Below are positions 19,216-64,000 of a stretch of 64,000 bases of DNA, piece by piece. How positions within the stretch are numbered: the stretch's first letter is position 1; each line of letters opens with the position of its first letter. Both the position numbers and the translations under genes were made by a program. The DNA is from Allacma fusca. Lineage: Eukaryota > Arthropoda > Collembola > Symphypleona > Sminthuridae. The stretch is from the NCBI GenBank assembly GCA_947179485.1, contig OX359248.1:46820847-46884846 (forward strand). The letters are read 5' to 3'. Below the pieces are notes generated by a model that saw only the letters and a list, made by a program, of their open reading frames with translations, was not told where the DNA came from and searched no databases.

Positions 19216-19219
19216 CAAG

Positions 19220-39300: not shown

Positions 39301-42300
39301 TCGCACCCCTGTAGTGCGTGAGCTCCTGGAACAAATTTTATTGCTCTATTTAATGACATGTCCTCAGTTTTCTGAGCGTCTTTATTCCTTGGGTCTTCAT
39401 CCTGTGAAAGACATAGTGAATGTGACGTCTTTTTACTTGTCACAACACCCTGCCCTTTCAGAGGTTGAATCTTCCATGATCTTCCATCGGTGAATTTGAT
39501 TTCACCTTCCCGGATATTTTTCCTCAGCTCTTCTACTGTGGTTGCCAGTAGAGAGTAATTATCTTCATTTACTGGATTCTCTGTGGATATGTACGTATGC
39601 GACGGCGGAGGGTTTTTGTTTTCCTCCGACTCGCATGCTGCAGATCTTCGTTGGATATTTTTCATCCATTCCTCCACATCTCTGGAAATCTTCATCGCCT
39701 TGATCCGCTGTGGGGTATCAAGATCCGGATTGTTAGCATATCCTGGACTTTCTGCATCAGGAACTTGATCAATCTTCCTGGCAGATTGTGCAGTGTATGT
39801 CTTCAATTGCGAAATAACTTCCTGTTTGAGCTTCCATTCGTCTCCTTTTGCTGACGTTGGATTCCTCCAAGTCTCTTCAAATGCAAACCATTTCTCTTCA
39901 TCTGTGGGATCGTGTCCGGATGGAATGTGATTTTCCACACTGAACTTTTCTTGTTTCAGTGTCGGTCGGTCGCATTCCTTTTGGACGTTCCTATCCTCAT
40001 CCGTGAGTACCAATTTCTTGGCCTCTTTAGGACTGGCGGGATGGGTGGGCGGGTTAGTTGAGGACTTCTCTTGTGTAGTCTCAGCTGCCTGGCTCACCAG
40101 ATCCGCTGTCTCCTGATTCTTCAAGGTTTGATCATGGACTTCCGTATCGGAGTCTACAATTATGGCTGGTGGTAGATGTACAGCTTTAGTTTCAGCCTCA
40201 CCTGCCCCATCCATTGTTGTGAATTCCATTGTACTCCGTGTCATCTGCCCTAGGGATTTTGGTGAGTCAATGTCGACCTTCCCATTGGCTGAACTTTGTG
40301 ACGTTGTTGCTGTCGTTGACTTTGGAGTAGGAGACCAATCAGTCCCCATTCCAATGTCAGTGATAGTATTTCTGTCAAAATCTTCATGCTCATTTTGAAC
40401 TTGAGCTTTCTTTGGCGATAGAAATTCTTTCATATCTAATTCATTTATTGTTGCATTGTGACGCTCTATATCTTGTATTAGTTTGAGATTTTTCTCGTAG
40501 ATATACTCGTTGGTGTATTTCCAGGTATTTTCATCCTCTAGTGGATCATCCTCCCGAAATTCGTGGATTGTAATTATGTCATCTACGGATAATTTCCATT
40601 CTTTGAGCGCTGAGTAGCTGTGTGTAACTTCATTAACACAGCTCTTTACGCTCATTGTATGGTTCTCCCAATCCGTTTCCTCCAAATTCGGTTGAGGTAC
40701 TAAAATTTCCACTTGTGATTTGACTTTACGCCTGGGTTGACCTTTCAATCTTCCTGACCATGGATTTTGTCGCTGTGGGATTATGGCTTCCTCTTCGTCT
40801 GAGGATTGACTTTCGTCATCCGTCCAATATTTTCCCTTATAGCTTTCCCTGGTCGTAAGGCTGGCTGCACACGTTGGTGGTGGCATTATTATGTTCCCCT
40901 GAGGGATTTGTTTTTGCTCTTCCAAAGCAATTTTGTGTTCCTTGACCGGGTCTGGTTCAAATTCAATCACTCGGTCCTCTGTATCCTCCAAATCTTCCTT
41001 TGTATAGGGTAATGGAGCTCTTGATAGAAAGTCTGCATCCAAGTGTAATGCTCCTTTCTTGTATGTAACTTGAAAGTCAAATTCCTGTAGTTTATTTACA
41101 AACTTACTTATTCGGTGGTTTGGATCTTTTTGTAATCGTAGGTAGCATAATGCTAAATGATCTGATCTGATTAAAAATTTTCTCAAATAAAGATATTGTC
41201 TGAATTTGCGAACTGCATATACGACTGCTGCTAGTTCTAATTCTGTGACTGAGTAATTCTTTTCTGACTGAATTAATGTCCTTGAAGCATAAGCTATTGG
41301 ATGTTCTCCTCCATCATCTTGGAGTATACAGCATCCTAGTCCTGAAATTGATGCATCTGTATGCAGTATGCAATCCAACTCTGGGTTGAAATGAGCTAGA
41401 ACTGGCTGTGTCATTAACTTAGTTTTGAGAATGTTGAAGGCAATTGTTGCATCTGCACTCCATTGGAAGCATCTTATGCGTTTTTGTCCTTCAGATTTCC
41501 CTTTACTCCCAATCCATGATTGTGAGATAGGACTAGCAATTTTTGCGAAGTCCTTGATGTATTTTCTGTAGAAACTGCATATTCCGAAAAATCTTCTTGC
41601 TTCTGTTTCGGATTTTGGTATTGGCACATGTCTAATAGCGTCCACCTTTGCAGGATCTGGACTGGTGCCTTCCCTGGATACTTTAAATCCTAAAACAATT
41701 ACTTCAAAATATCCGAATTTGCATTTCTTTGGCTTAAACTTAAAGTTCTTGTTGCTGGCTCTTAACATCAATTCTTCGAGAGATGCTAATTTGTCCAAAA
41801 GATGAATTCCATAAGAGATTACATCATCTAAATATACCATGGCTCCCCTAAATTTGAGTGAGCCCAGCATTTGATCTGCTGCTCGCTGAAAAGCTGACGG
41901 TGCAATCTTGACTCCCATAGGTAGTCGTTTGAATGCATATAATCCGTCCTGTGTAATGAAAGAGGTTATAATTTGATCATCCTCGTGTATTAATAGTTGA
42001 AAGAAGCCTGACTCCATGTCAAGAGTGTCGAACATTGCAGATTTTCCAAATTGCATAAGTATGTCATCTATTCTTGCTAAAGGGTAAACTTGATCTGTGA
42101 TGGTCTTATTTAATGCTCGATAATCCACAACTGATCTAAATGTTCCGTCTTTCTTTTTGATGAGAAATAGTGGACTGCTGTAAGGTCCGTTTACTTCCTT
42201 TATTATGTCCGCATCTAACATCTTTTGTACTTCCTCACGTACTTTTTGTCGCTCCATAGGTGAGCAAGGGAAAGGTTTTGCCTGAACGGGTGGATTATTT

Positions 42301-43307
42301 CCCGTATGAATCCGAATGGGATCAATCCACGCTGGTTCTTTCAAATCTCCCTTGTTGAATGCGAAGCATTCTGGATATCTTGTCAACAATGCTCGGTACT
42401 TTGCTCTTCCTTCCTCATCGAGCTCTTCATTGATGTCGAAACAATCGAGCTGTTCTTGTGTGAGCCTTTTGTGAGCATCACGTAATTGATTGCGTTTGAT
42501 TTTGATGAGATCAAAATTTTCCTCAGCATGACCTATAGCTGTACGTCCATACATCGTTTGTGGGCATGGAGCTGGATTAAATACGTATGCGAAAGGTTCT
42601 TCATTTGGTACTACACCTGCGGCTACTAAAAGTCGCTTGCTGGTGTAAAGCTTTTCTGATGGTTGCAAATAAAAATCCTTTTTGATACGTTTTGGAATTT
42701 GTATGGGCACCTTCATGTGTCCATAGGCTGGTATAGTGACTGCTTTTCGAGTCCTGCACATCATGTTCCTTGGTCCTTTGACTTCATGAAATGAAAAAAT
42801 TGACCTGACAAATTCTATGTCGGCCTTTTTCTCTCCGACGTAGAGATGAGTGTCTCTAGTCATTGGGACTGTTTGAAATCGGTCGCTCCGTATTTCATTA
42901 TTCTTGTAATCCAACGTTATTCCATAACGTGATAAAAGATCTTCACCTATAATCATTCGTGGCTCTAGTGTTTCCATCACTAGACCTTTGAATAAAAGTT
43001 TTTCACCTTCAATCATCATTGTGAATTTGGTGAGACAAATTGGTTTTACCAATTCTGCATTTGCTACTGCTACTCGCAGGGCGCTTGGAACTTCTTTTAT
43101 TTCCGCACATCTGGGTACTAAGTTTCTTTGGATACAGGATCTTGTTGCTCCTGAATCTAGTAAAGCTGGTATCATCATACTACATATTTGCACTTGTAAA
43201 GTTGACTTGTTGCCGTTTGATAAACGACATGGGTTAAGATCAATAATTTCTAATTCTTCGTCGTCTTTGGACTGACTTTCTAATCTAGTTGCTATAATTG
43301 CATTCAT
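36111..43307 (-). CDS. pol: Retroelement Pol polyprotein, 2398 aa
   Basis: Aspartic protease active site LLDSGATRS at residues about 49-57. Reverse transcriptase about 345-540 with SVVDYRALN, RLPMGVKIAPSAFQ and catalytic YLDD (492-495). RNase H about 645-765 (LHTDAS, then ELELAAVVYAVRKFRQYL and RSDHLAL). Integrase with an H-x4-type zinc finger (HLGFQKTLH, then CESCQ, about 1430-1480), a catalytic triad D-D-35-E near 1502, 1564 and 1600, and a GPF-type C-terminal module (YKGPFVVIEVLAKDNY). Two additions are unusual: about 640 acidic, low-complexity residues between RNase H and integrase, and about 650 Ser/Thr/Glu-rich residues after integrase. Pol begins 20 bp after the gag stop in another frame. 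The family commonly uses frameshifting or re-initiation here. Confidence 0.95.
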   Translation of the reverse strand: MNAIIATRLESQSKDDEELEIIDLNPCRLSNGNKSTLQVQICSMMIPALLDSGATRSCIQRNLVPRCAEIKEVPSALRVAVANAELVKPICLTKFTMMIEGEKLLFKGLVMETLEPRMIIGEDLLSRYGITLDYKNNEIRSDRFQTVPMTRDTHLYVGEKKADIEFVRSIFSFHEVKGPRNMMCRTRKAVTIPAYGHMKVPIQIPKRIKKDFYLQPSEKLYTSKRLLVAAGVVPNEEPFAYVFNPAPCPQTMYGRTAIGHAEENFDLIKIKRNQLRDAHKRLTQEQLDCFDINEELDEEGRAKYRALLTRYPECFAFNKGDLKEPAWIDPIRIHTGNNPPVQAKPFPCSPMERQKVREEVQKMLDADIIKEVNGPYSSPLFLIKKKDGTFRSVVDYRALNKTITDQVYPLARIDDILMQFGKSAMFDTLDMESGFFQLLIHEDDQIITSFITQDGLYAFKRLPMGVKIAPSAFQRAADQMLGSLKFRGAMVYLDDVISYGIHLLDKLASLEELMLRASNKNFKFKPKKCKFGYFEVIVLGFKVSREGTSPDPAKVDAIRHVPIPKSETEARRFFGICSFYRKYIKDFAKIASPISQSWIGSKGKSEGQKRIRCFQWSADATIAFNILKTKLMTQPVLAHFNPELDCILHTDASISGLGCCILQDDGGEHPIAYASRTLIQSEKNYSVTELELAAVVYAVRKFRQYLYLRKFLIRSDHLALCYLRLQKDPNHRISKFVNKLQEFDFQVTYKKGALHLDADFLSRAPLPYTKEDLEDTEDRVIEFEPDPVKEHKIALEEQKQIPQGNIIMPPPTCAASLTTRESYKGKYWTDDESQSSDEEEAIIPQRQNPWSGRLKGQPRRKVKSQVEILVPQPNLEETDWENHTMSVKSCVNEVTHSYSALKEWKLSVDDIITIHEFREDDPLEDENTWKYTNEYIYEKNLKLIQDIERHNATINELDMKEFLSPKKAQVQNEHEDFDRNTITDIGMGTDWSPTPKSTTATTSQSSANGKVDIDSPKSLGQMTRSTMEFTTMDGAGEAETKAVHLPPAIIVDSDTEVHDQTLKNQETADLVSQAAETTQEKSSTNPPTHPASPKEAKKLVLTDEDRNVQKECDRPTLKQEKFSVENHIPSGHDPTDEEKWFAFEETWRNPTSAKGDEWKLKQEVISQLKTYTAQSARKIDQVPDAESPGYANNPDLDTPQRIKAMKISRDVEEWMKNIQRRSAACESEENKNPPPSHTYISTENPVNEDNYSLLATTVEELRKNIREGEIKFTDGRSWKIQPLKGQGVVTSKKTSHSLCLSQDEDPRNKDAQKTEDMSLNRAIKFVPGAHALQGCEGSKDTFSTHKPVCRILEDEEQVTMLEEHNMQEMQRDDPDCLFIMDKIKMRHTLNWKDKEKYSRYEIDEEGILTIVHKDGRKLYVPRVLRNFLLSKAHDGILCGGHLGFQKTLHRLNKNYFWRKMNVSVAKYVMSCESCQAAKSMRMKPAGLLHPIRIENVGDALCIDLIGPMQISIKGNKYIIIAQDYVSKFVIAEAIPDKTADRIAEFLLHKVVLKYGLFKNLLSDGGSEFRAEITQALLRRLGMNHSTSTALRHNSVGQIERMVQTISTMLSHYTQKEQALWCSCLPFLINAYNCSHHDVTKETPYFMMFRRQPIYDFNLQLCLSSVDTNFMSAEEATTRIEKAIAKIRERQDYSKDWYDRKRRFVKFNIGDTVRVFTPTRIVGKSERFLHPYKGPFVVIEVLAKDNYIIQDLRNSKKRQKVHVERLKKCLQREHIEDEYSYDLDSDIVELVTKRNWNKCGKVIVSQPRSILKSSTTSDNSSTTSKKVTFKVQPAQTEEITREFSSENYSDSSSDQAQPVQQRGEFCDKNYSHSQITPSEGGKPNQGLRQHKDNTQGEKGTTKQSSTQVRKLSSENYSDNREFLDKNYPYFTRSKVNEHPRGNQGRDKGIETTEEFSPNKNLEVRSSGRVHQTENRSFRTANSRDKTSNVKFLPTSGEITRRGSTRVTDDTYEARINPNHQGITSPINQGKGERNSSPTKNFTSDFRTAGSAEQAETTGERSQSNPPGNSESQRRYFGFNKPAENSSGVTSEGEEETQPLIDESDFKTLKELSSSGTSPTELDVDDSSERRETNSYNSGSEPRINQPPTTERGRPGQIETGNQGPSEATSRVEVPWPSVKADISTQLLHTDEQKALEEPPFVELNTKPTQRSSETNTAKPTSARQSDQRGNSTSRERNRTNRESQEYSEKSDTSSKQASQQFNQPKERKVLVENSTEEDEEFQEVLTDENGQDSVDTHTEVINTPVEFSTEEDRSLDVITKDSPRRPERIRTNTSDRRETVSDPQNPTSTNPTGTSTSSGGNSGVKEAGETPQEGSAEETGESRRYPTRTRKRTRRFGSV
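36497..36742 (-). CDS. Overprinted coiled-coil ORF d, 81 aa
   Basis: ATG-started, in the same frame as the other four short ORFs. After a Pro-rich start it runs QTLQSLQAQGSRIREAIARV and EREIEQTERAKNILKNQI, a clear heptad-like pattern. The overlapping pol frame is low-complexity Ser/Thr/Gln sequence. Confidence 0.45.
   Translation of the reverse strand: MSKRPWKSPPLWNSTPSPPSEAQRQTLQSLQAQGSRIREAIARVEREIEQTERAKNILKNQIRAANRLANNSTNPRNEKSL
36776..36946 (-). CDS. Overprinted coiled-coil ORF c, 56 aa
   Basis: ATG at 36944-36946, stop at 36776-36778. Reads MWTTAVSVERQILTIRDQNR and then ELINRLRQREGDLDKLKQEI, a textbook heptad pattern with Leu/Ile at a/d positions. It is found by continuing the frame of the neighbouring short ORFs and is shorter than common ORF cut-offs. 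Confidence 0.4.
   Translation of the reverse strand: MWTTAVSVERQILTIRDQNRELINRLRQREGDLDKLKQEIKDLQKRLHELRCLGPQ
37046..37288 (-). CDS. Overprinted coiled-coil ORF b, 80 aa
   Basis: Starts 3 bp after the stop of ORF a. It is coiled-coil-like over nearly its whole length: ELIQIIKGLQAQLIKAKENE, then QQEVLSKLKQLEKDHKATLQ. It overlaps pol tail codons in another frame. Confidence 0.45.
   Translation of the reverse strand: MTHTKQELIQIIKGLQAQLIKAKENEIRLQQRILHQISEQQEVLSKLKQLEKDHKATLQETQKAKEDISDLINQLKTAQV
37292..37504 (-). CDS. Overprinted coiled-coil ORF a, 70 aa
   Basis: First of the series, ATG at 37502-37504. Reads MNTLEEIRDEIRGLKQQRNL, then EEYIKQRIAALELLIQE, followed by a polar tail. Tight spacing to ORF b suggests coupled translation if both are real. 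Confidence 0.45.
   Translation of the reverse strand: MNTLEEIRDEIRGLKQQRNLVQIKIWKYAAQEEYIKQRIAALELLIQETKPQTSSFCPQVEKSQDEVQPE
37520..37795 (-). repeat. Duplicated module in the pol tail
   Basis: Two copies of a peptide module SSENYSD followed by (E)F-x-DKNY occur in the pol frame (about 37682-37795 and 37520-37592), with matching DNA words GTAATTTT. They show that the tail has grown partly by internal duplication. Confidence 0.6.
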
Positions 43308-43327: not shown

Positions 43328-46300
43328 TTACTGGGGGTGCATCCCCCTCTGTGAGTTTCCCGACGGATATGGGCTAGACTGTCTTTTGTGTGGGCAGTTT
43401 CTTCTTAGGTGGCCCATCTCTCCACATCCGAAACATTTTAAGTCGGTTTGGGTGGATTCTAGCGCCAATTGTCCCGGTATCGGTTGTGATTGCTCCTGGC
43501 GGTCTGGTTGATTCCTCCAGGAGTTGTTTCTGTCGGTGCTTTGGCTGTTCCGGTCCCTGGAGTTAGTTCTACTCCTGTTGTTATTGTTGTTGTACTGTTG
43601 GGGTCGTTGACCTCCTTGGTTATTGTTGGGCTGATAACCCTGGTTCTGGTAACCTTGTGGGTTGGCCTGAATTTGCTGCATGCCAGGGTTGGCGTACCCT
43701 GCATTTTGTCCTGGACCGTATCCTTGTTGCGGTACGTATCCTTGAGATGGTCCATACCCTTGAGTGGGTGCATAACCTTGAAATGGTGCATAACCCTGTT
43801 GTGGTGGGTATCCTTGATTCGGATTAAACCCTTGAGGTGGCATAAAGCCTTGAGTTTGATTAAATCCTTGGCTGTTATAGCCGTTGTAGGATTGGTTGTA
43901 CCCTTGGTTCATCTGTTGGTCATTCCACTGACGATTTCCCTGGTTGTTAGGGTTGTTGTTGTAGTATTGTCGGTTCGGACTTTGTCTAGATCCGAAGTTT
44001 TGGTTCCGCTGAGGGTAACCTTGGTTGTTGGAGCTGTTGCCATCATTTCTGTACTGAGGCCTACTCCTGTCTTGATTATTGTAGAATCTCTCAGGTGTTG
44101 GAGATCTACCTCGGTTCCCATAATTTCTTCGGTCATCATACCCTTGGTTGTTACGTCCCCTGTCCGGGTAGTTGTTATTGTTACTGTAACCTGGGCTGAA
44201 ATTCCGTGAGTTGTTGAAGTTTCCCTGACCTGGACTTCGTCCTCGTTGGTCATTAGGTCTATTCTCAGGTCTCCGATGGTCCTGTTGTTCTCTCACTGCA
44301 GCTATTTTCACTACAGTTGTTTCCGCTGGAACGGATTTCATTCCGGAGGTTAATTTCTCCAACATTTCTTGGACTTTGGCAAATCTTGTCTCAATAGATT
44401 CCGCGCCGTCCGTCTTTCGGTCTTCATCATACTGCTTGATTCCCTCTATGAAATCTGCTACAGTTCCTGCTGTCCATCCTCGGCAGAAAACTATGTATTC
44501 GGATGTTAAACCTGCGCGTAAGAGTCTGATTTTCTCCAGTTCGGGCATAAATCTGTCGACTCTATTGATTAGTGCTAATTTCGCATCTATGTATGCGCAT
44601 GGATCTTCATCCGTATTCATCTTTCGCTTTTCCATTAGTGTACGTATCATTTGGTCGGTGATACTGTACCTTATTAAAAATTCCTCCCTGAATTCGTCCC
44701 AGTTAATGGTGTCGTAGGGTAGTTCCTCATGTAATCTTCGTTCGGCAATCCAATTTCTGATCCAATCCCTGACGGGTGGGTCAAAGATGATCTGTACGTA
44801 TTGCATCCTAGTTATGATGGTATCTCCTCCGAACCTGTTGGTCTGAAGCTCGGCTGTTGCGAAGGCTGTCTCTGGGTCATCTACACCCGGTTTGAATTCT
44901 ACTTTGGGAAACATGAGGGCGGTCATGTCGTCGTCCAGATGTCTCCTTGGAATTATTCGTACTTGTTCTTGGTCTGCAACTTCCTCAATACGTATTCCCT
45001 GATTGCGATTGAGTGGTACGTATGGGTTGATGATATTAACGTTGACCTGGTTGAAGAAATTATTTCTGTTCACAATCTGTCTATTCCTCCAGTTGTCGAA
45101 GGCTTCGAAGTCGTGAGGGTTACTTGAGTTGCTACTACTGGAGCTGGATGATGAACTACTTCCTCCGGAACTTCCGGGGTCGCTCCTTGCTCTCTGTCTA
45201 CCTCCGATGTGTCTACCTCCTCTTGAGCCTCCTCGACCTGGATTTGACCTTGATTGTGATGGTCGCTGGTTGTGGGAGTTGTTGTTATTAGCTCCTCTCG
45301 GCTGGTTTCCTCTCCCTGATCCACTTGGTCCTGGGCCTGGTGGTCTGGGTTGGTTATTTCCAATTTGACGGCGTGCTCGTAAGGGTTTACGTCTTTTTCT
45401 GACTTGAGTGAGTACTACTTGAGTTTCCGGACTAAGATCTCGGAGTCGGATTCTTGGGAAGAAGTGAGTTTCTCCGGTATTATCCACAAATCGGACTTCC
45501 TCTTGTATCTCTTCGTCTCTTTCGATTGCTCTGAACGCTGCGTCGTAGGCGTCGTCTATAGAGATTCTTATCGTGAATTGACCTGGTACTTCTGGAATAA
45601 TGAAGTCCTCTTCGTCAACTCCAATAAAAATGTGGTCTGTCTCTTCACTAGACTGTGCACTGTTATGCTGCCCACTCTCACGTCTTGGAGTGTCTCTCTG
45701 TACTACCTGCTCTTCTTCTTCCTCGCTGGACGTGTCACTCAAGATTTCTACGTTAGGGTCGTGAATTAATCTATTCAGTGCCTCTTGGTGGTCGTGTTCG
45801 TTCTCGATTTCTTCCAAGAAGCCTGGTGGTACCCTTTGTCTGCGAACGCCGTTCGGTAGACTGATGTGTCGATGGTAAAGTCTGAAGTTGGGTGCGATGT
45901 AGCTGGAGATCTGCCCTGGATCTAAAGATCTTCGGGTGATTATGTTCCAGAAGGTAAATATCGGGTGTTCACTCAGAACAATCTCTTCGTGTTCAGCTCT
46001 TGTAGCTGCAAACGCTTCAAAGTTTGAATCTCTTGCTGGTCTGAACCTTCGTTGTATGATACCGTCCCTTCTGTTGTAATAGATCAGGCGTCTCACTTGG
46101 CCTGTCCAGGTTGCTTCGTTTTCTACCCCCTGGTTTCTGAATCTGTCTTGTTTACGGGCGATCTTAGCGTATTGCCTCACTGTTATTCTGCTTGGTACTA
46201 ACTCGTCTTCGGTTGCTTCGTTCTCACTGGTGTATACTCGGCCACTGGGTCCTGTCCAAATGTTAACTCCGTATTGCAAGTCGTCAAGCCAATTGACTTT

Positions 46301-49300
46301 ACCTTGACTTGTGGTTGGAGTTGTTGTTACTCGAGATGGTCCTGCTACCGCTGAACTTGGTCTGATGGGGACAGCTGGAGCTGTCGGTGTCGTTGGTCGG
46401 TTCACTGATCTGGTTATGAACCTTCCGGTTGGCCTAGCTGGTACTGCAAAAGTCGTTGCTGCACGTGTCGTAGATGCAGGTGTTGCTGTCCGTGACCTTA
46501 AGGTGTCACCTTGGACGTACGACTCGTTGCTTCTAGATGTTTGTTCTGAAGGTGGTGGTTGTGGTGCTGTTACAAGCTCTCCACCTTCTATGATGGTCCT
46601 GTCGTTGTTGGTTGCTCGTTGCAGGATGTCTCGACCTCGTAAACTGTGGCGGTGTATACCTGTGCGTCCTATCGGTAGGCTGTTGTATAACGAGCCTCTC
46701 GGTGATTGATAGACGGTAAACCTGTCTTGGGGTCTAAATGCCTGATAGTAAGTACCTGTGTCAGAATTTCTGATGGTATTTGCAATAGTCAATGACGGAT
46801 TCTGTTCCCGTAGTTGTCTCCCTACTTGCACCAATGTTCTTAAAGCTGTTTCACTAACGTCAAGTGGCGGTGCTCGCAACGCGTGCACGGGTGGATGTAC
46901 GTAGATTCGACCTCCCGGTGACTGATAAACTCGGTGTACCAGTTGTTCGTTACCGTTTGCCTGGGTGGAATCTGTGTTGACGTACAACTTTGTTGTTGTT
47001 AAATCCCTCTTAACGGTAGCCTGTGATGTACTACCAATTTGGGTGGTCTCGACCTCCTCAGTTGGTGTCTCCAAATCGTCTTGGGTGGGTTGAGGTCTAA
47101 ATTGCAGGTTAGGTTGAGTTGGTCGATTTCTCGGCGTATTTTCCGTTGACACCTGTCTGTTCTGACTGGCTGGTGAGATGTGTACTGGATTAATCTGCTG
47201 TGTTGTTTCGTGAGAGTTGCTGTGTCGGCTTGATTGCCCCCTATCACCGGTTGCGGGTGTTGAGCGACAGGAATTACTGGACCTCGGGGTTCCTCTCGGT
47301 TGTGCCGTAGAGCTCCCTGCTGGCGTCCGATTACCTGTCTGGACTGTGGGTGATGTAGTGGGTGCTCTTGGGCTACCCTTCTGTATGGCTGTCTCGCAAC
47401 GGCTGTTGCTTGGTCTCTCACGTGTCGTAATCCCTTGTGGACTGGTCCTGGGATTTAAGTTGCTGTTCTCCTCAGCACTCTTTACCCTATAATGTCCTCT
47501 CACCGATTTCTGGAAAAGTTGTGACCTAGGTGATGAGTAATCTACCTGGTTACTATCCGTCACCTGGTTACTTGGTCTGAGATGGTCACGATCGGAGTTA
47601 CTCGACTTCCGATTTCGAGGGGTTGTTAAACCTGCTTGAAGTGTCGCTGAGGCTATTGCCTGGGCTATAGCCTTGTTGATTGAGCTTGAGCTGGTATTCA
47701 AGCTTTCCGGTGAAATTCGTCGTGGCGTAACGGGTTGTACTGTAGGTTCACCTGAGATGGTCCTTAGCGTAGATCTAGATGCTGGTTCTAATAAACCCGT
47801 AACCGGATTCCGTGTTACTGGTGGGTTTCGTTGTTCGTACCTAAGGTACCTGCTAATGATGTCGTCAGCACTGGAGTCGATTACTCTTTGTTGGGTGGTC
47901 TCGTTGTTATTTGGTTCTTGTTCTGGACCTGACCTACTCTCGTCGCTGACTCGCCTTTCTTGTCGCTGTTGACCAAATTCTAGATTTTCACTAAGTCTTC
48001 CGGATTGTATCACGGTCGTGTACCTAGGTGTATCGTTGAAGAAAATCTGGCTATCCTGGTGTGCCTGATGACTTCTCAACGACAATACCCGGTGCTCTAA
48101 AAGGTTTCGGATGACGTCTGTGGGGATGAAAATGTTGTCCCTGACGTTCCGACCGTACTCGAAGGCACGTGTACGTAGCACTTCCCTTTCTTCCCTATTC
48201 GGATCTCTGTTATTGTCCCGTCTGTGGGTGACTTCAGCTAATCTAAGGAAAAAATGTGTCCACTGGACTGTACCTGTATAAAGATTTTGAGCTAACCTGT
48301 GATACACCTCTATCAGCTGTCCTTCCAATCCTCGAACTACCAGAAAATTTTCCACTGAGTTCCGTTGGAAGCCTGCTGTGGTCACTAATTGTTGAAATGA
48401 ACCTGCTGGTACTATCACACCTGTACCTGTCACTAATTGTACGAAATTTTCTTCCACTCTTTGGATGTTATCTTGCCCTTCTCTGTTCGGTGGTAGCTGA
48501 TCCTCGACTGGGCCTTCCTGTTCTGTAGACTCAGACACCCGGCTGAGTGTCCTTTGAAAGCCTACGTCTCCTCTATTGGAAAATCCTGGAGGTGGTCTTG
48601 ATAGAAACCTATCTCGCACAAGTTGTTGTATGTCCGGTTGTTGAGAAACTGTAGTATTCGACTGTGACGATTTACGGTGGTCACTAATACTTAAGTTTGA
48701 TAACTGCTGATTTAGTTGAGTAGTGACCTGGTCCCGATCACTCCCTATACTGTTATTGGTACGTGGCACTCCTGTTGGTGAGTCACCTTGTTCGCTCTGT
48801 TCGGTTGACTCGTCCGATTGAGTTATTGCTAAATTGTCCCTAAATGATGAGTGTGTACTGAGATTCCCTTGCTGGATAATCTCTGGTGTACTAGTTGCTA
48901 TAGCTATTGGTTTGTTGGAATCCTCCAATTCATCCAATTCCGTTGAGCTTTGCTGATTAACCTGTTGTTCTGTTTGTCCAGTAGCTTTGCTGCGCATTCC
49001 TTGGCTTTGTACATCCTGTTGGGATTGTACACTCGTGTCTTGAGGAATGTCTCCGTTGCCAACTGGGTTTGTCAGGTTGCTGACAACCACATTGTTGGGT
49101 GATTCATTGGTCACGTCTTCCATCTCACTTTCCGGAGTTGCGAATCCTTGCTCGCCCTCCCCTACGCTTGTATGATTGCTTCCAGGATCCGTGAGTATTT
49201 CAAATGATGACATGGCAGCGCTACTAGTTGGTCTTTCCTCAGGTTGATTAAATTGCGACAGGATTTCCTTGATCGTGGGGTCAGCATCGTGACTGACGAA

Positions 49301-49894
49301 AACCATGTCTCCTCTAGCATTTAGCATGAATTCGCCTGTGGCCTCAACCTCCTGGTCTTGTTGGACCTGTTGGCCCTCCAGGTTGGTTACCTCGAGGTCG
49401 CGTAATTCTCGTTGCATAGCTAGTCTATGGAGATTCTGTCCTTGCACCACCTTTGTTTTTGAAAACTTTGGTGTTTGTGCTGTCGATACTGTTGGTGTTC
49501 GTTTAGGACTGGTTGCCGTACCTGTTACAGGTGTTGACACCGTGTCCAAGAACACATCCATGCTCTCATCATTATTGTCAGGATTATCTCCGTGCCCCGT
49601 GGCCTGCGAGCCCGATGGACTTTGTGCAGATAATGCCAGGGTTGTACTGCCGGATTCTTCCATGACTGTAGATGTCGAAGCTGAAGATGTTGAAGAGAGG
49701 TCTACACCTGCCGTTGCTGTATTAGCTTTGGCTTTTGCTGCTTTCCTCTCCTCTTTCCTGCGGGCGAGGATCTCCTCCAAGCCTGTTTCATTCTGTGGCA
49801 CTGGTCCTGCCGATCGCGTAGTCCTTCGAGATGGTATTGAAGGTGCAGGTTGTGGTTCCCTTCTTGATGGATGTTGGTTCTTTTCGGGTTCCAT
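43328..49894 (-). CDS. gag: Retroelement Gag polyprotein, 2188 aa
   Basis: About 1500 N-terminal residues are Ser/Thr/Gln/Arg-rich and probably disordered, with a recurring (Y/W)-x-(S/G)-P-x-G-R-x-Y motif. Next come an RGG-type patch (GRGGSRGGRHIGGRQRARS) and a run of ten serines (about 1510-1590). A capsid-like helical domain lies at about 1665-1830 (WIRNWIAERRLHEELPYDTI, then EFREEFLIRYSITDQMIRTL), like Ty3/gypsy gag domains. From about 1880 to 2110 is a Q/N/G/Y-rich stretch with many QGY repeats. A CCHC zinc knuckle, CFGCGEMGHLRRNC, is at about 2150. Typical gypsy Gag is 300-500 aa, so the recognisable core is embedded in roughly 1700 extra residues. It should form particles and bind element RNA; that is inferred from the family. 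Confidence 0.92.
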   Translation of the reverse strand: MEPEKNQHPSRREPQPAPSIPSRRTTRSAGPVPQNETGLEEILARRKEERKAAKAKANTATAGVDLSSTSSASTSTVMEESGSTTLALSAQSPSGSQATGHGDNPDNNDESMDVFLDTVSTPVTGTATSPKRTPTVSTAQTPKFSKTKVVQGQNLHRLAMQRELRDLEVTNLEGQQVQQDQEVEATGEFMLNARGDMVFVSHDADPTIKEILSQFNQPEERPTSSAAMSSFEILTDPGSNHTSVGEGEQGFATPESEMEDVTNESPNNVVVSNLTNPVGNGDIPQDTSVQSQQDVQSQGMRSKATGQTEQQVNQQSSTELDELEDSNKPIAIATSTPEIIQQGNLSTHSSFRDNLAITQSDESTEQSEQGDSPTGVPRTNNSIGSDRDQVTTQLNQQLSNLSISDHRKSSQSNTTVSQQPDIQQLVRDRFLSRPPPGFSNRGDVGFQRTLSRVSESTEQEGPVEDQLPPNREGQDNIQRVEENFVQLVTGTGVIVPAGSFQQLVTTAGFQRNSVENFLVVRGLEGQLIEVYHRLAQNLYTGTVQWTHFFLRLAEVTHRRDNNRDPNREEREVLRTRAFEYGRNVRDNIFIPTDVIRNLLEHRVLSLRSHQAHQDSQIFFNDTPRYTTVIQSGRLSENLEFGQQRQERRVSDESRSGPEQEPNNNETTQQRVIDSSADDIISRYLRYEQRNPPVTRNPVTGLLEPASRSTLRTISGEPTVQPVTPRRISPESLNTSSSSINKAIAQAIASATLQAGLTTPRNRKSSNSDRDHLRPSNQVTDSNQVDYSSPRSQLFQKSVRGHYRVKSAEENSNLNPRTSPQGITTRERPSNSRCETAIQKGSPRAPTTSPTVQTGNRTPAGSSTAQPRGTPRSSNSCRSTPATGDRGQSSRHSNSHETTQQINPVHISPASQNRQVSTENTPRNRPTQPNLQFRPQPTQDDLETPTEEVETTQIGSTSQATVKRDLTTTKLYVNTDSTQANGNEQLVHRVYQSPGGRIYVHPPVHALRAPPLDVSETALRTLVQVGRQLREQNPSLTIANTIRNSDTGTYYQAFRPQDRFTVYQSPRGSLYNSLPIGRTGIHRHSLRGRDILQRATNNDRTIIEGGELVTAPQPPPSEQTSRSNESYVQGDTLRSRTATPASTTRAATTFAVPARPTGRFITRSVNRPTTPTAPAVPIRPSSAVAGPSRVTTTPTTSQGKVNWLDDLQYGVNIWTGPSGRVYTSENEATEDELVPSRITVRQYAKIARKQDRFRNQGVENEATWTGQVRRLIYYNRRDGIIQRRFRPARDSNFEAFAATRAEHEEIVLSEHPIFTFWNIITRRSLDPGQISSYIAPNFRLYHRHISLPNGVRRQRVPPGFLEEIENEHDHQEALNRLIHDPNVEILSDTSSEEEEEQVVQRDTPRRESGQHNSAQSSEETDHIFIGVDEEDFIIPEVPGQFTIRISIDDAYDAAFRAIERDEEIQEEVRFVDNTGETHFFPRIRLRDLSPETQVVLTQVRKRRKPLRARRQIGNNQPRPPGPGPSGSGRGNQPRGANNNNSHNQRPSQSRSNPGRGGSRGGRHIGGRQRARSDPGSSGGSSSSSSSSSSNSSNPHDFEAFDNWRNRQIVNRNNFFNQVNVNIINPYVPLNRNQGIRIEEVADQEQVRIIPRRHLDDDMTALMFPKVEFKPGVDDPETAFATAELQTNRFGGDTIITRMQYVQIIFDPPVRDWIRNWIAERRLHEELPYDTINWDEFREEFLIRYSITDQMIRTLMEKRKMNTDEDPCAYIDAKLALINRVDRFMPELEKIRLLRAGLTSEYIVFCRGWTAGTVADFIEGIKQYDEDRKTDGAESIETRFAKVQEMLEKLTSGMKSVPAETTVVKIAAVREQQDHRRPENRPNDQRGRSPGQGNFNNSRNFSPGYSNNNNYPDRGRNNQGYDDRRNYGNRGRSPTPERFYNNQDRSRPQYRNDGNSSNNQGYPQRNQNFGSRQSPNRQYYNNNPNNQGNRQWNDQQMNQGYNQSYNGYNSQGFNQTQGFMPPQGFNPNQGYPPQQGYAPFQGYAPTQGYGPSQGYVPQQGYGPGQNAGYANPGMQQIQANPQGYQNQGYQPNNNQGGQRPQQYNNNNNRSRTNSRDRNSQSTDRNNSWRNQPDRQEQSQPIPGQLALESTQTDLKCFGCGEMGHLRRNCPHKRQSSPYPSGNSQRGMHPQ

Positions 49895-50763
49895 ACCTGT
49901 AAACGTCCTAACTTTTTCTGGATGGGCTGAAAAATGCTAAGGCGTTTCGTAGAGTTCGGTTTTATGAATTTGTTTTGACGGTTGTGAGAGTTCTGTTGTC
50001 AATTTCAATCCTGAAAACCTTCTTAAAACTTATGCCAAATTTCAACTTAAACCGTTTCCTAAAATTTTTTGCCTTGTATGCCTATGCTTATGTAACTCTA
50101 GTTGTTAAACTTAATTGCCAATTGGTGATGATGACTTGGAAAAGAAATTTTTCTGTGCTTATAACCTAAGTGTTCAAACCCTGAACGTCCCTAACCTTAG
50201 CTGTGAATCGTCTTAGAACTTAGTCTCTGTAATCCTAACGTTTCCAATGAGTACCTCCTGGTGTTACCACCTGAGTCTCCTTAAAACCTAAACTGTCGTA
50301 AACTTACTTTCTTTAAACTTAAACTCCTTAGAACCTATTTTCCTTAAAACTTAGTGTCCTTTTAAACTTAACCTTCCCTAAACTTAGTCTCCTTAATCCT
50401 ATCCTCCTTAAAACTTAAAGCTCTTAAACTTACTCACCTTTAAAACTTAATCTTCTTAAACGTACTTATTTGCAATGGCTAATTGCGTCTAACTCCTTAG
50501 ATTATCAGTCTTATTGTCAATCAACACTCCTCACATTCGGGCCGGTGTTGCCTAAATTCCCTAAATACTCCTGTAATGATTCCCAGAATTAATAAGGACT
50601 GTATTCCTCGCTACTAATTACCCTTCTGTCCCAAAGGATATGTTTCGCGTCCTAATTCGTACCTAAGAACTTCCTTGAACCGATCCTACCATCAGCAAGG
50701 CTTGTATCTGTTGTAGACAGCAAAAACTGAAAGCACCAGAATTTACTGAATTCCTATCCCTAT

Positions 50764-50939
50764 AACCAACTCTCAAAAGCCATGAGCCTGTGGTTTCTTA
50801 TGCCAATTCTCTCTACTCTAGCAAAATCCTTCGAGAATGGCTAATCTTATGATGCACTCAAAACCATGAGTCATCTATGGAAGAAGTAATAAATATGAAA
50901 GTCCCTATGTATGGCCATAGCTGGAAACCGCATACATAG
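50764..50939 (-). other. Three further leader stem-loops
   Basis: 50764-50795 (stem AACCA/TGGTT) and 50851-50875 (stem GATG/CATC) share the sense loop word CTCATGG-TTTTGAG. 50905-50939 has a perfect 9-bp stem CTATGTATG/CATACATAG and a different 17-base loop. Confidence 0.6.
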
Positions 50940-50949
50940 ATTTTAAAGT

Positions 50950-51215
50950 GAACATCCGTGCTTTGGAATGTCCCCTGTTATCCTATCCACTAAACCATGG
51001 ACCTCCTTACTAGTAATAGTCATTGCTGTTACCTATCCGCTAGCTCGGGCACATTACAAACATATACCTATATCGGTGCGTCAATCATAGCCTCTCCGAT
51101 TACCTCTAGTAGGTCACAGGCTTATCGGTACTTTTGTCGGCACTCCATCCGATCACCTCCGTGCTTGGAATGACTCGAACCCTACTAAACCATAAGGTCC
51201 CTCCTAATCTTCCTA
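50950..51215 (-). other. tRNA-like blocks in the leader
   Basis: Sense strand ATGGTTTAGTGGATAGGAT (50980-50998) closely resembles the D-arm/A-box of tRNA-Glu. A related block near 51190 reads ATGGTTTAGTAGG, then GTTCGAGTC, a T-arm-like word. Both are followed by CATTCCAAGCACGGA-like sequence, so they are diverged copies of one another. No complete cloverleaf was found. Confidence 0.45.
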
Positions 51216-51489
51216 GCCTCTCGGATTCTACGTATACTAAACTTATACACAACAATGATTCCGCTCACATTTCGGCCCTTGAATCCCTAAAAACTACGTA
51301 GATGAGAATTTTCTTATATGTATGCTTATGTACTATGCCAATGTGTCCACGCTCAATGTACCTCGGCCCTTTGGACTAAATTTTGTTCAAACCTTAATAA
51401 AACTGTCCTAATCACCTCGGTGCTCATATTCGGCCCTCCCGAGTAATTTTGCTCACCTTACATACTATAGTCTTTAGATGGTCTGATCT

Positions 51490-51519
51490 ACCTATGCTCT
51501 CTAACTGAGCTATATAGGT
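51490..51519 (-). other. Leader stem-loop with tRNA D-arm-like loop
   Basis: Stem ACCTAT/ATAGGT. The sense loop reads ATAGCTCAGTTAGAGAGC, very close to the consensus tRNA D-arm TAGCTCAGTTGGTAGAGC. The following sense bases TAGATCAGACCATCTA can form an anticodon-arm-like hairpin. Confidence 0.5.
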
Positions 51520-52881
51520 TTTGATTTGCAAAATGACTAACTGAAATCTGATATGCTCCGTGCTCACATTCGGCCTTCCGGATTGACTTTGGAATCCTAA
51601 TATTTGCCAAAAAACCATGACAAATTATTTCCTAATTACCCAGCGCACAAAACGGCATTTCTGGTAGAAATGGAAAGATGGAAGAAGGAAAAGATTTTTG
51701 TGAAAAGTTTATGATAGATCCTATTGTTACCCGTGTAAACCTACACATCAGGTAGAGAAAGTAATTTTCAGCGAAAGAGTTTTAATTGGGTTTTGCCACC
51801 TAGCCCTGGGGCTCTTAATTACGTAATTTGGAGATAAAGAATTAAAGACATCTGCGCTCAATCCCGGCCCTTCAGATGTGCTTATACTAGAAGGAGAAAA
51901 GATGTAGAGAAAGAAGAGAGTGAAAACATTATTTTGAGTTATTTACTTGAAAGATAGATCATATTGTTGCTTTAAACTAAGCTTGGAAAGTGAATTTTGA
52001 GAGTCTTGTATTAATAAAAAAGTCCTGATTGATTGAAAGATTGTAATTGTGTTTTGGGTTCCTATCCCCTAGCCTGGGGTTTCCCAAGACTTGAAAAGTA
52101 ATTTGAAGAGTTAAAAGAATTTCAATGCTCAAAAAAAAAAAACGGCCCTTTTGAAATTAGGAACTTAAAACTTACGAAGAGAAAGGTTACTATTATACTG
52201 CGCACAAGAACGGCACTTCAGCCGGAATAGTTCCCTTTACAATACGAACACTGTTTATGCCTCCGCTCACAACGGCACTTAAGGCGTTTAAAAAGATAGA
52301 AGAAGACTTATTTTACTGGAAGAAGCTAATTTTGGTGAAAATTTGTTGTGCACCTATACCTACTATGTACTCTGAAAACCACAAAATACATATACATATA
52401 TGCGCAATTTTCTAATTTGAACCTATGATTTGTCACTAAACTCTGGTTAATTACTCCTGAATATTAGCTACGCTTCGTAACTACATGACAAAATTTATAT
52501 GCTCCTAAACATGAAATTCATGGACCTTAAAGAAAATAGTATTACCTTATTGGACGTCCTCTTCCCTTAATTTTCCGGTTGGAAAGAGTCCCACTTTCAC
52601 TGGTCACTTAAAATAATATTTCCGGCCGTAAAAAATAGTTCTTTTTATAGTGCCGCACTAGGACTTCTGAACTGTTGTTTGAATCCGCGCGTGATGATAA
52701 TGGCCAATTTTCTTTCTTGAGGTAACATTATTGCATGTTATGACTGCCTTTCACGAGAAGTTTCGGGTGGCCCTGGAGAGAAATGAAGCATTTTCTCCTT
52801 GTCGAGCCCCATACTTCCATCCCATGAATTTTTGAAAACTGCGACCGTACTTGCTACAAAGTTGGTCTTTGTTTCAGGGTC

Positions 52882-52906
52882 ATCCGCAGGTCCCCGACCT
52901 ACGGAT
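52882..52906 (-). other. Strong stem-loop near the 5' LTR
   Basis: GC-rich hairpin ATCCG-C-AGGTC | CCC | GACCT-A-CGGAT: two 5-bp stems with a single mismatch and a 3-base loop, 48 bp inside the LTR. The location is that of packaging or dimerisation structures in related elements; function here is inferred. Confidence 0.6.
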
Positions 52907-52953
52907 CCTCCGGGTCCTTACCAACTAAACCCGAAGGCCTGGCAGAAACATCA

Positions 52954-53523
52954 TGTTATGTATTTATATTACCCGGGTATTGATGTTGTGTGGGTAATAG
53001 TAATGTAGCCTAGGTTCGGGTGTTCCATCCCCTGAATTCCTGGAATCCGATGTTGTTGGAAACGCATGAATAAATGGAACTATTGAATTCTGTGTGTAGT
53101 TCTTTTATTTAACTTTGGGCCAATTTATTGTTCCTAAACTGATACAATTTACACTGAACAATTAACATTTAACACAAATAGAATTTGAAGTCTGAATCTC
53201 TTCTTCATGAAATCTCCCGATTTCATGTCGCCCCGCTTGCTACCTTTTGAGCTCCATCCCGGAGGGAATGGACTCTAGGTGCGGCTCCTCTTGATGTTGC
53301 TTGCTTGAAGTCGAGATTAGAACTTGTACTTAATCTACGTGTCTTAATCTAAATCTAATCTTATCCTATTCTTAGTTTATTGTTTATTAAATAATCTGAA
53401 TCATTTCCTTATAATTATGTTATGTTAGCGTTTGGCGTCACGTAGCCTCTGCTTACGACCTTCCAAACTATTTGCTGACTTAGATTATGCTTATTCTACT
53501 CTATTTATAATATATTCGTAACA
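52954..53523 (-). repeat. 5' LTR
   Basis: 570 bp, identical by eye to the left LTR. The sense-strand TATAAATA box lies at plus coordinates 53502-53509, near the LTR start, so U3 upstream of it is very short if that box is used. Confidence 0.95.
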
Positions 53524-60900: not shown

Positions 60901-61324
60901 AATATTTTCCTTCCACACACTTTCACTCCCTTCTTTTTATTTCAACACCATCATACACAACTTTTGATTCCACAACTTTCCCCAACTTTTTACAAACCAA
61001 AATGGACTTTTCAACATAAACTTTCCTAAAAAAAAGCAAGATTGAAATTTTTCCTGAAAGAACTTTACTCTTTTACTTTTTTTAAAATTCTGTTGTTTCC
61101 TCAAGTTTTGTAATTAACTATCAAAGGAAAACTGATGTGTTAAACAGTAAGTGTTTTTATCCAATCAAAAACAATCTGCATTTTTTCAAAGGTACATAGA
61201 TATTTGATTTGGCTAAAATTTATGTGTAAAAATAAATGTAAAAAACATCTTTTATTTTACCCGAAATCAAACTTGCAATTGAAGTTAAATTCACTATAAT
61301 TTATTAAAACTACTATTTAACCTG
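57931..61324. other. Unannotated flank
   Basis: AT-rich unique sequence. Good donor-like sites on the minus strand near 58315 and 59492 follow short open frames, but none yields a recognisable protein or a signal peptide. Confidence 0.35.
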
Positions 61325-61915
61325 AAATTGAGTTAAGCCTCAAGTTGTACTGCACTTGAATATAAACACAACTTGACCTGAACTTGAGTTAAACCTCAAC
61401 TTGACCTGAAATTGAGTTGAGCCTCAACTTGACCTGAATTTGAGTTGAGCCTAAACTTGACCGGAATTTGAGTTGAGACATAACTACACCTGCACTTGAA
61501 TAAAGACACAACTAGACCTGAACTTGAGTGAAGCAAAAATTTGACTTGAACTTGAGTTAAGCCAAAACTTGACTTGAGCTTGAGTTAAGGCGCAACTTGA
61601 CCTGAACTTGAGTTAAAACACATCTTGACCTGCACTTGAATTAAGACACAACTTGACCTGCACTTGAATTAAGACACAACTTTACCAATACTTCAGTATA
61701 GACACAACTTGACTTGAACTTGAGTTAAACCTCAACTTGTCCTGTACTTGAGTTAAACATCAACTTGACCTGTACTTGAGTTGACACACAACTTGACCTG
61801 AACTTGAGTTGAGACACAACTTGACCTAAACTTGAGTATAGACACAACTTGACTTGAACTTGAGTTGAGACACAACTTGACCTGAACTTGAGCTGAGACA
61901 CAAGTTGATCTGACA
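61325..61915. repeat. About 28-30-bp tandem array
   Basis: The unit contains ACACAACTTGACCTGAACTT and then GAGTTGAG. About 18 copies of varying divergence, the right-hand ones most alike. Confidence 0.85.
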
Positions 61916-62814
61916 TAGAATGTAAATGAGCCTTGCATAAGACTTGAATGATCCTCAAGGCAGTTCAATTATTTTTTATTAATGTTTTTCATCTCACTAC
62001 AAGACACAATGCAATACGAGACTCAATTATAAGATCATGTTCTCTACAAAGGCTAAAATCATACAGATTCCCCTATACCATAATGTTAATCCCTCCTTGC
62101 AATATCCTGTATCTAGATAAGAGTTCGGCAGTGATTTACACAGAAAGAGCAAAAAAATGGTAAAAACGCTGTAGAGCATGGGGTTACATGAGTGGACAAT
62201 TTATATTTATTTGGAGACATATTGACACCCATTACCGTCCAGAAACAAATTCAATTGCTTAGTTAGACCCGAGATCTGTTGCACTTGTAGGGATCGTTCC
62301 AAGAAAAAAATGCGTGAGGGGCGGATTGGACAGTGTGAAAACATGGGATTAGAGCACTCAAAATGGTTTTGTAATTCACCAGGACGACTCAACTTTCTTC
62401 AACTGGAATTTCTGCTCGCTGAATTCTTTACATTTTCCTTCCTTCCCGTCTCCCTTCAGCTTCTTTACTCTGTCGCATACTTTCTGGCTTTCATTTCTTT
62501 AACCTAACTTCCAGTTGCTGTATTGTGTCAAGTCCAATTTAAAATCAGCGTATTTAAGAGCATTTCAAATGCTTCACTTAAGATTAGCTTCCACAGAAAT
62601 TCAAGCGTGAGTAAAGATAAGAATTTAGACTTCACGCTAAAGTCAACATTGATCTTCAAGAGCAGTTAGAATTTGGGAGAAGCTAGAGCTAAGTGTAAGG
62701 TGAGGGAAATTCAAGTTTCTGCTTGAGTGAGGTTTAACTTTCACTTGAGGGAAACTTAAGTATTGCTTTCAATAAATCCATGATTTGATTTCAGTTAAGG
62801 TCAAATTAAGAATA

Positions 62815-63372
62815 AAGTCAATTGTAAGTTCAAGTTCAAGTCAATTGAAAGTTCAAGTTCAAGTCAATTGAAAGTTCAAGTTCAAGTCAATTTTAAGTTC
62901 AAGTTCAAGCCAATTGTGAGTTCAAGTCAATTGTAAGTTCAAGTTCAAGCCAATTGTGAGTTCAAGTCAATTGTAAGTTCAAGTTCAAGTCAATTGAAAG
63001 TTCAAGTTCAAGTCAATTTTAAGTTCAAGTTCAAGCCAATTGTGAGTTCAAGTCAATTGTAAGTTCAAGTTCAAGTCAATTGTAAGTTCAAGTTCAAGTC
63101 CATTGTAAGTTCAAGTTCAATCCAATCGTAAGTTCAATCCAATTGTAAGTTCAAGTCAATTGTAAGTTCAAGTCAATTGTAAATTCAAGTCAACTGTAAG
63201 TTCAAGTCAATTGTAAGTTCAAGTTCAAGTCAATTGTAAGTTCAAGTTCAAGTCAATTGTAAGTTCAAGTTCAAGTCAATTGTAAGTTCAAGTTCAAGTC
63301 AATTGTAAGTTCAAGTTCAAGTCAATTGTAAGTTCAAGTTCAAGTCAATTGTAAGTTCAAGTTCAAGTCAGG
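62815..63372. repeat. 23-bp tandem array, about 24 copies
   Basis: The unit is CAATTGTAAGTTCAAGTTCAAGT minus its final bases in some copies, with 17-bp short units lacking one TTCAAG. Decayed GTTCAAGTCAA words continue to about 63680. Confidence 0.88.
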
Positions 63373-64000
63373 CAGAAGGTCAAGTAAAGTGTAAATTAAG
63401 GTGAAATTCAAGTTAAACAGATTTTAGTTCAACTCAAGTGTAAGTTCAAGTTCATGTCAATTGTAAGTCCAACTTTATTAAAGTTCGGGTCAATTGTAAG
63501 ATCAAGATACGGGTGAGCTTAAGTTCAAGTCAAGCGTTAGATCAAGTTATTGTGAGTTTAAGTTCAAGTCAAGTGTAAGATCAAGATAAGGTTAATCTTA
63601 AATTTACGTCAATTCCAGAGCTACTTTACTTCAAGTTCAAGTCAATTTAAATGCTCTTTGAAACCTAGTTCAAGTCAATTGTAAACTCAACACCAATTTT
63701 ACCACTCCTAAATCATGTCCCAAAATTTCGAATCATAGTTATATTTTCTTCCAAACTTGAAGTTTAGAGTGAAGTTTCAATTTGAATATTGATTTGTAAG
63801 GAAACTTCTTGCCTTCCAAGGCGGCCCCTCCAGTATTCACTTTGATTTTCCAAAGTCGCCTGCCTCACTTGCTCGAGTGGAACCTCCAATTTCGGATCTA
63901 CATACATGGAAAGTATGGGAGAATTCCTGAGCTCAATTTTGCCGTTAAAATTCAATTCTTTGGAATGCATTCCCTTTGAAGCGTTTGCTTTCTCCTCGTG

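Follow-up and report, generated by a model that had tools for sequence, protein, structure and literature searches.

How can about ten hairpins in one leader RNA share a loop while their stems, unrelated in sequence, still pair, and what might such an array do? The question is raised by a 64,000-nt stretch of the genome of the springtail Allacma fusca (contig OX359248.1, positions 46,820,847–46,884,846; hereafter the window), which contains on its minus strand an intact-looking long terminal repeat (LTR) retrotransposon of the Ty3/gypsy type, 28.7 kb in length (24793–53523). Its 5′ leader (49895–52953, minus strand; 3059 nt) lies between the 5′ LTR and the gag-like open reading frame (ORF). 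An earlier description of the locus, which we refer to as the original prediction, had proposed some ten leader hairpins with one shared loop and unrelated yet pairing stems, and this was borne out: within 50522–52287 (minus strand) the leader carries nine hairpins with a strict core and one register variant (50522–50550), including all four stems that had been quoted. The loop given at the time, AAGGGCCGNNTGTGAGCR, proved too rigid. The core is instead R-A-R-N-GCCG-N(3-11)-YG(A/U)GC-R, flanked in fixed register by arms that differ yet are complementary; only the A, the GCCG and the YG.GC are near-invariant, and the middle varies in both length and sequence. Selection on RNA structure in this array is, in our assessment, virtually certain.

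An array of hairpins around a constant core

The hairpins, all on the minus strand, are numbered in the sense direction. Hairpin 1 (52257–52287) has the arms GCCTT/GAGGC, with GCCTA/TAGGC in other copies of the element; hairpin 2 (52194–52225) has GCTG/CAGT, beneath which a basal helix ACTATT/AATAGT is predicted; hairpin 3 (52119–52157) has AATTTCAA/TTGAAATT and an apical-loop T run that differs among copies; and hairpin 4 (51848–51879) has ACATCTG/CAGATGT, with ACATTTG/CAAATGT in other copies. For the following four, a related family introduced below as family C provides counterparts: CCAG/CTGG of hairpin 5 (51637–51667) corresponds to CCCG/CGGG, TCCG/CGGA of hairpin 6 (51554–51585) to TCTG/CAGA, CTCGG/CCGAG of hairpin 7 (51414–51445) to TTCGG/CCGAA in leader L044 and TTCGG/CCGAG in leader L047, and GTCCA/TGGAC of hairpin 8 (51343–51378) to GTCTC/GGGAC. 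Hairpin 9 (51255–51287) has GATTC/GAATC, or GATTG/CAATC in other copies, and hairpin 10, the register variant, has CAACAC/GTGTTG and an inner helix with C-G where family C has G-C.

The strict core was defined blind to its flanks, and all nine of its occurrences in the leader have at least four flanking pairs; a search of both strands of the window found none outside the leader. Across 1000 dinucleotide shuffles of the leader, the mean was 0.015 cores and no hairpin arose. Read in fixed register, the arms pair at 37 of the 40 innermost flank cells, whereas arms combined across copies pair at a mean of 2.0 out of 4; none of 200,000 permutations reached 37 (the register of two of the ten hairpins was set by hand for this test, in which the variant still lies out of register and pairs at 1 of 4). 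When six pairs per hairpin are counted in fixed register, 45 of 60 pair, which 2 of 200,000 permutations reached, and with offsets left free the observed sum was reached by 1 of 200,000. Ten hairpins from eight slots, drawn from the window and its relatives, served to build a covariance model, which recovered nine hairpins in the window at E ≤ 0.001, the next best match having an E-value of 0.42, and missed the variant at 50522–50550 at E ≤ 5.

Core and stems evolve differently within one family

The genome searched comprises 392,743,791 bases in 91 contigs. A DNA search with the leader scored 40 copies out of 160 candidates, 95–100% identical and including the window, and a search with a diverged copy as the query scored 40 of 162 candidates; the matches of both lie on six contigs (C1, C5, C8, C9, C10 and C12). 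We call this family A. The leader comparison covers 37 copies, leaving out the window itself (L009) and one entry at the same place as another (L035, which coincides with L008). All nine slots are present in the three diverged copies that have whole leaders (27 matches), and among the family A copies the core is lacking in one copy of one slot.

Mean pairwise diversity across the leader background is 0.0415 (1529 sites). It is 0.0045 in GCCG (equally low in 3 of 2000 background samples), 0.0186 in UGAGC (55 of 2000) and 0.006 at the invariant A (252 of 2000); for the three jointly it is 0.0117, and none of 5000 background samples was as low. The outer stems have a diversity of 0.0409 and the apical loops one of 0.179, and the unconserved positions 8, 10, 11 and 25 have 0.054, 0.152, 0.111 and 0.124. 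These values show that the core is under purifying selection, that the stems drift at the background rate yet pair, and that the apical loop is free. Compensatory changes occur within individual slots (ACATCTG/CAGATGT to ACATTTG/CAAATGT, GATTC/GAATC to GATTG/CAATC and CCTT/GAGG to CCTA/TAGG), and the arm cells of the distinct stem variants of the nine slots comprise 128 Watson–Crick pairs, 12 G-U, 7 A-C and 9 other combinations. A search for covarying columns in the 37 copies returned 440 candidate pairs; helices shorter than 5 accounted for 412.

Among 81 distinct hairpins with at least four flanking pairs (drawn from 368 in all, overlapping loci being counted twice), positions 8 and 25 are A.G in 56, A.A in 17, G.A in 8 and G.G in none. 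In the same set, position N11 is G in 64, creating a GGCC palindrome through which loops could kiss and RNAs dimerize. The position is T in 15 of the 81, however, some of these having no palindrome in the core, and the GCC would be taken up by the inner helix that we propose below; we consider dimerization very improbable as the role of the array.

Related families carry the same core

When the genome was scanned with the 18-base pattern AAGGGCCGNNNNTGAGCG, 223 matches were found and its reversal gave none; some of the matches listed are single ones outside family A. Two further families, B and C, have the core. A search with the start of the family B gag scored 97 of 363 candidates and gave 98 matches. 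About 30 of the places, with identities of at least 84%, are family B itself; the family A places match at about 40% identity across some 115 residues; and a third set, at about 30% identity, includes 13 places with open frames of 2256–2289 amino acids (aa) and was named family C. In their best stretch the family C leaders (L044 and L047) are about 77% identical to family A, and they contain 11 and 12 core matches, respectively. One hairpin-bearing segment is present twice in family C (L044, 1565–1598 and 1795–1828), so new hairpins appear to come from local duplication, followed by divergence that keeps the pairing. A further leader, L043, has two core hairpins, its family assignment being unclear.

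The leader of family B (L042) shares with that of the window a BLASTN similarity of only 22 nt, at the LTR end, and carries two hairpins of the same core on other stems, AUCGG/CCGAU and GUUGG/CCAAC. It also has what may be a second constant loop, in four C-GARGUACU-G hairpins with different stems (L042 2559–2702, minus strand; 2300–2443 in the sense direction). Beyond the constant C-G, three of these pair at 3 of 3 positions in register and one at 1 of 3; to pair as GAAC/GUUC, that one needs a bulged base. Genome-wide, CGAAGTACTG is found as two neighbouring copies at 62 places, and the reversed control at 2. In L042, L045 and L046 the stems are mostly conserved, with no clear covariation and some broken pairs, and of the four loops themselves, two are altered in L045 and one in L046. 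We regard this array as a suggestive lead to a second constant-loop family. A general search for loop 6-mers common to several stems was dropped because the leaders were not clearly separated from shuffles: 60 shuffles averaged 35.75 shared 6-mers where the window had 64, and family B had 45 against 23.8, with at most 6 copies of any one in either leader compared with up to 7 in shuffles.

Stems covary across families

The cross-family alignment draws on ten sources, with 64 model matches in 55 distinct rows, and is fitted to the structure. In it, 87.1% of cells pair, compared with 69.7% after shuffling and at most 44.2% for slid partners, and the covariation score is 0.499 against 0.172 in shuffles (0 of 500 as high). 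Ten hairpins chosen for equal length (8 of 10 slots) gave 0.523 against 0.191 (0 of 500). A core search blind to the stems avoids the fitting of the alignment to the structure. In the ten sources it found 65 core matches with 41 distinct arm pairs, whose innermost four positions pair at 4 of 4 in 36 and at 3 of 4 in 4; the single exception is the hairpin 10 variant of family C, which is paired one base out of register. Taken at 5 bp, the distinct arm pairs number 30 and have 135 of their 150 cells paired; the best of 100,000 permutations reached 103. Among the stem-blind arm cells there are 9 G-U, 4 A-C and 11 other mismatches. As a chance control we used viral contigs, in which the exact 18-base pattern had at least 120 matches: of the 120 listed (one per contig), 2 are fully and 12 three-quarters paired, and of 1146 looser cores, 18 are fully and 156 three-quarters paired.

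Slot by slot, four family A leaders and two family C leaders differ by double changes in hairpin 5 (A-U/C-G), hairpin 6 (C-G/U-A) and hairpin 8 (A-U/C-G). In hairpin 7 a C-G/U-A double change is complete in L044 and affects one side only in L047, and in hairpins 1, 4 and 9 the changes are ones also seen within family A.

Taken together, the shuffles, the arm-pair permutations and the viral-contig control rule out a chance origin, and simple repeat duplication is ruled out by arms that differ yet pair. The original prediction had set selection on RNA structure against duplication. Cross-family covariation, compensatory changes, purifying selection on the core and a near-invariant G-U pair on the sense strand uphold that reading, although duplication did contribute to the origin of the array, as the doubled segment in family C indicates. 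Of the checks proposed at the outset, the comparison with shuffled sequence, the covariance-model scan of other copies and the search for lost pairing in related copies (40 of 41 distinct arm pairs keep at least three of the innermost four) came out in its favour.

Complementary arms could also be DNA palindromes or mini-insertions, produced by template switching during reverse transcription with no selection on RNA. The arms are perfect in many copies, and copy number does change by local duplication, as at L044 1565 and 1795. Such a process leaves unexplained, however, that the core is under purifying selection while the arms drift at the background rate, that G-U outnumbers A-C among the arm cells in both counts (9 versus 4, with 11 other mismatches, and 12 versus 7, with 9 others), and that the near-invariant G-U pair (53 of 55 rows) would be a mismatch on the other strand. 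We find this origin barely plausible.

Inner helix and stability

Within the core, GCCG and UG(A)GC are likely to form an inner helix with a bulged A (or U). In the 55 distinct rows, two of its four positions are always G-C and C-G, a third is C-G in 53 (unpaired in 2) and the fourth is G-U in 53 (G-C in 2). Hairpin 10 is the informative case: it reads CCCG..UGAGG in family A and GCCG..UGAGC in family C, a compensatory G-C/C-G exchange.

Several observations weigh against the explanation that we propose in the next section. The inner helix is nearly invariant, and because of this it could instead be a largely unpaired recognition sequence. Within family A, the three pairs that covary need only 3, 1 and 2 pair-state changes by parsimony. 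In the cross-family alignment, two of five measures are not above shuffles (pairs with double change, 471 of 500; further pair types, 470 of 500); the same two measures gave 41 of 500 and 10 of 500 for the ten equal-length hairpins. Family B has only two core hairpins in its 2.5-kb leader, so many copies are not obligatory. Finally, partition functions in a 50-nt context give the innermost outer pair a probability of at least 0.3 in two hairpins and of at most 0.04 in seven (the tenth being measured out of register), folding of single hairpins yields the outer stem in 8 of 10, and in a 14-copy alignment 6 of 10 outer stems have a mean probability above 0.5 in the best overlapping window. By nearest-neighbour energies the motif is therefore marginal, which would not be surprising for an RNA with a purine-rich internal loop or for one bound by protein.

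A candidate packaging signal

We propose a module in which a variable outer stem of ~4–8 bp would carry an internal loop of purines that is asymmetric, with RARN in its 5′ strand and R in its 3′ strand. Above this loop would come a short helix of constant sequence, GCCG/UG(A)GC, in which one base is bulged, and a free apical loop of 3–11 nt. The outer stem would serve only to present the constant core, and its sequence could for that reason drift with pairing kept. The core would be the binding site for one protein, most likely the Gag polyprotein or else another protein encoded by the element, with 9–12 copies making the binding multivalent; binding to the array would then select the full-length RNA for packaging. 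Retroviral packaging signals sit between the LTR/primer-binding site (PBS) region and gag, and the structured hairpins described here occupy the interval between the presumed PBS and gag. A multivalent protein-binding signal, with packaging as our best guess, fits the position and polarity of the array, its repeated and constrained core on free stems, and the zinc knuckle of the element's Gag. As a whole, we give even chances to a structured motif array acting as a protein-binding, most likely packaging, signal; that it is specifically a multivalent Gag/packaging signal is a tentative proposal to which we would give somewhat less than even chances. The multi-copy recognition element suggested by the original prediction agrees with the repeated core array, and its further suggestion of packaging by Gag is plausible.

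Nuclear export offers another role for a protein-bound array: an export factor, from the host or from the element, would bind the hairpins and take the unspliced 28-kb RNA out of the nucleus, by analogy with the constitutive transport element (CTE) of Mason–Pfizer monkey virus (MPMV), the Rev/Rev response element (RRE) pair and Cer1 CERV. Such export is required by any element that has both spliced and unspliced RNAs, and an internal loop that stays conserved while its stems vary is well suited to recognition by a protein. The CTE binds NXF1 through paired inverted internal loops; a position in the 5′ leader and not near the 3′ end is, however, atypical of CTEs, and we rate this role as unlikely. 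Export of Cer1 genomic RNA (gRNA) needs the element's own protein, and an MPMV RNA structure binds NXF1 (PMC10309623).

In a translational role, the structured leader would bring ribosomes to the gag start codon, either by internal initiation or by shunting. The 3.06-kb leader has 39 ATGs upstream of gag (about 63 being expected from composition) and would be a poor substrate for plain scanning. Ten near-identical modules over 1.7 kb are nevertheless unlike the known layout of internal ribosome entry sites, and hairpin number and spacing differ among families A, B and C; internal initiation is thus the less favoured reading, and an improbable one.

If a packaging signal it is, the families might each use their own. 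In such a per-family loop code, the array loop of each giant-element family would be read by its own Gag, with loop and protein co-evolving: RARN-GCCG..YGAGC-R in families A and C, and in family B mainly C-GARGUACU-G on four stems plus two hairpins of the first kind. Co-resident giant elements would then be kept from packaging each other's RNA. We think this quite unlikely.

The host element and other leader features

The two 570-bp LTRs (24793–25362, 3′; 52954–53523, 5′; both minus strand) are 100% identical, have TG...CA ends and are flanked on both outer sides by ATAT, a short target duplication of the kind found in Ty3/gypsy elements (Metaviridae). A presumed primer-binding region adjoins the 5′ LTR (52924–52953, minus strand), begins TGATGTTTCTGCCAGGCC and probably acts as the PBS. 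It is common to family B, giving the 22-nt match at the LTR end with L042, L045 and L046; the exact string TTTCTGCCAGGCC is present there in these three and was not found in L044 or L047.

The gag-like ORF (43328–49894, minus strand; 2188 aa) has a zinc knuckle near its C terminus (zf-CCHC, E = 3.6e-4, 20.9 bits against a cut-off of 20.8); residues 1650–2188 had no homologues at E ≤ 0.001 among 2175 candidates. The pol ORF (36111–43307, minus strand; 2398 aa) encodes protease, reverse transcriptase (RT), RNase H and integrase in the Ty3/gypsy order: RVP at 34–132, RVT_1 at 383–543, RNase H to 743, and integrase zinc, core and C-terminal models at 1420–1767, the rve core scoring 32.2 bits, slightly below the cut-off of 32.6. 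The best solved structures for the RT are 4ol8 (RT/RNase H; 3.5e-67) and 7q5b (Ty3 Gag-Pol; 1.2e-66), so among solved structures it is nearest to Ty3, and the element belongs to Ty3/gypsy; the top protein match, among the 120 best of 366, is 44% identical and comes from a pseudoscorpion. A third ORF (29342–35911, minus strand; 2189 aa) has no Pfam match at E ≤ 1, and neither in it nor in most of the gag-like ORF did Pfam recognise a domain.

Within the array, a tRNA D-arm-like hairpin of similar layout (51490–51519, minus strand; ACCTAT..GCTC-AGTTAGA-GAGC..ATAGGT) is of uncertain membership. In two other leader hairpins on the minus strand the inner part is fixed, and the outer stem shows compensatory changes in some copies. 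One, around CCCCAGGCTAGGGG (52051–52090), has the outer stem TTGGG/CCCAA in the window and, among the 12 commonest variants, TTTTGGG/CCCAAAA in other copies, TTTCGGG/CCCGAAA in L007 and mismatches in L004 and L005; the other, around TGATGTGTAGGTTTACACGG (51728–51755), has TACC/GGTA in most copies, CATC/GATG in L004 and L007, and loses its outermost pair in L005. We also noted tRNA-like remnants resembling D-arms or T-arms, judged by eye (50948–51012, 51145–51216 and 51466–51530, minus strand), the GGATAACAGGGG of the first being common to family B; ARAGORN reported no tRNA genes. Upstream of the gag-like ORF, 50200–50470 (minus strand) holds purine-rich imperfect AAGTTTTAAGGAG-like repeats. 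Outside the element are short-period tandem arrays of 11–34 nt (2183–2590, 11361–12200, 13537–13960, 15000–15540, 18904–19255, 61216–62019 and 62705–63450), several with related CTTGACC/TCAAGT-type units. Elsewhere in the assembly, four near full-length copies of mitochondrial COX1 lie on large nuclear contigs (C5, C8 and C12), besides contig C91; a COX1-like nuclear copy has 89% identity with the COX1 of Sminthuridae.

Relation to known systems

The array is a new RNA motif, computationally well supported, present 9–12 times per leader in two very large LTR-element families and twice in a third, with a core and stems that evolve clearly differently. Rfam 15 gave no match at the gathering score over the whole window; of three matches below threshold between 49000 and 54000 (E-values 0.26–3.6), one overlaps hairpin 5. 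Titles and abstract openings of open-licence papers yielded no account of a comparable array in a retrotransposon, in agreement with the original prediction that no described family resembles it. To our knowledge, metavirus packaging signals are poorly known, and the motif offers a short testable module for them: its constant core and drifting stems provide many natural compensatory variants, and the co-resident families allow one to ask whether loops and Gag proteins change together.

Among giant elements, the planarian Burro elements are likewise Ty3/gypsy-like; they exceed 30 kb and have a 4,873-aa ORF1 polyprotein (PMC6431247), whereas the springtail element is 28.7 kb long with separate gag, pol and third ORFs, and the available part of the Burro account mentions no such hairpins. 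Cer1 of Caenorhabditis elegans is also an LTR retrotransposon, whose gRNA export needs an element protein; the part of its account at hand describes no conserved-loop hairpin array (PMC10309623).

The array also resembles the stem-loops of retroviral Psi (in MMTV, MPMV, FIV and HIV, for example), which are likewise conserved-loop hairpins in a 5′ leader upstream of gag. As far as is known, retroviral packaging signals have a few hairpins, whereas families A and C have 9–12 copies of one internal-loop motif over 1.7 kb, with Gag as the proposed partner here. In this repetition the array resembles the dispersed packaging signals of single-stranded RNA viruses (satellite tobacco necrosis virus (STNV), MS2 and enterovirus-E), in which several short RNA sites likewise share a motif and are read by one coat protein. 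Those systems are capsid viruses; the array described here belongs to an LTR retroelement and, within the window, is found in its leader only.

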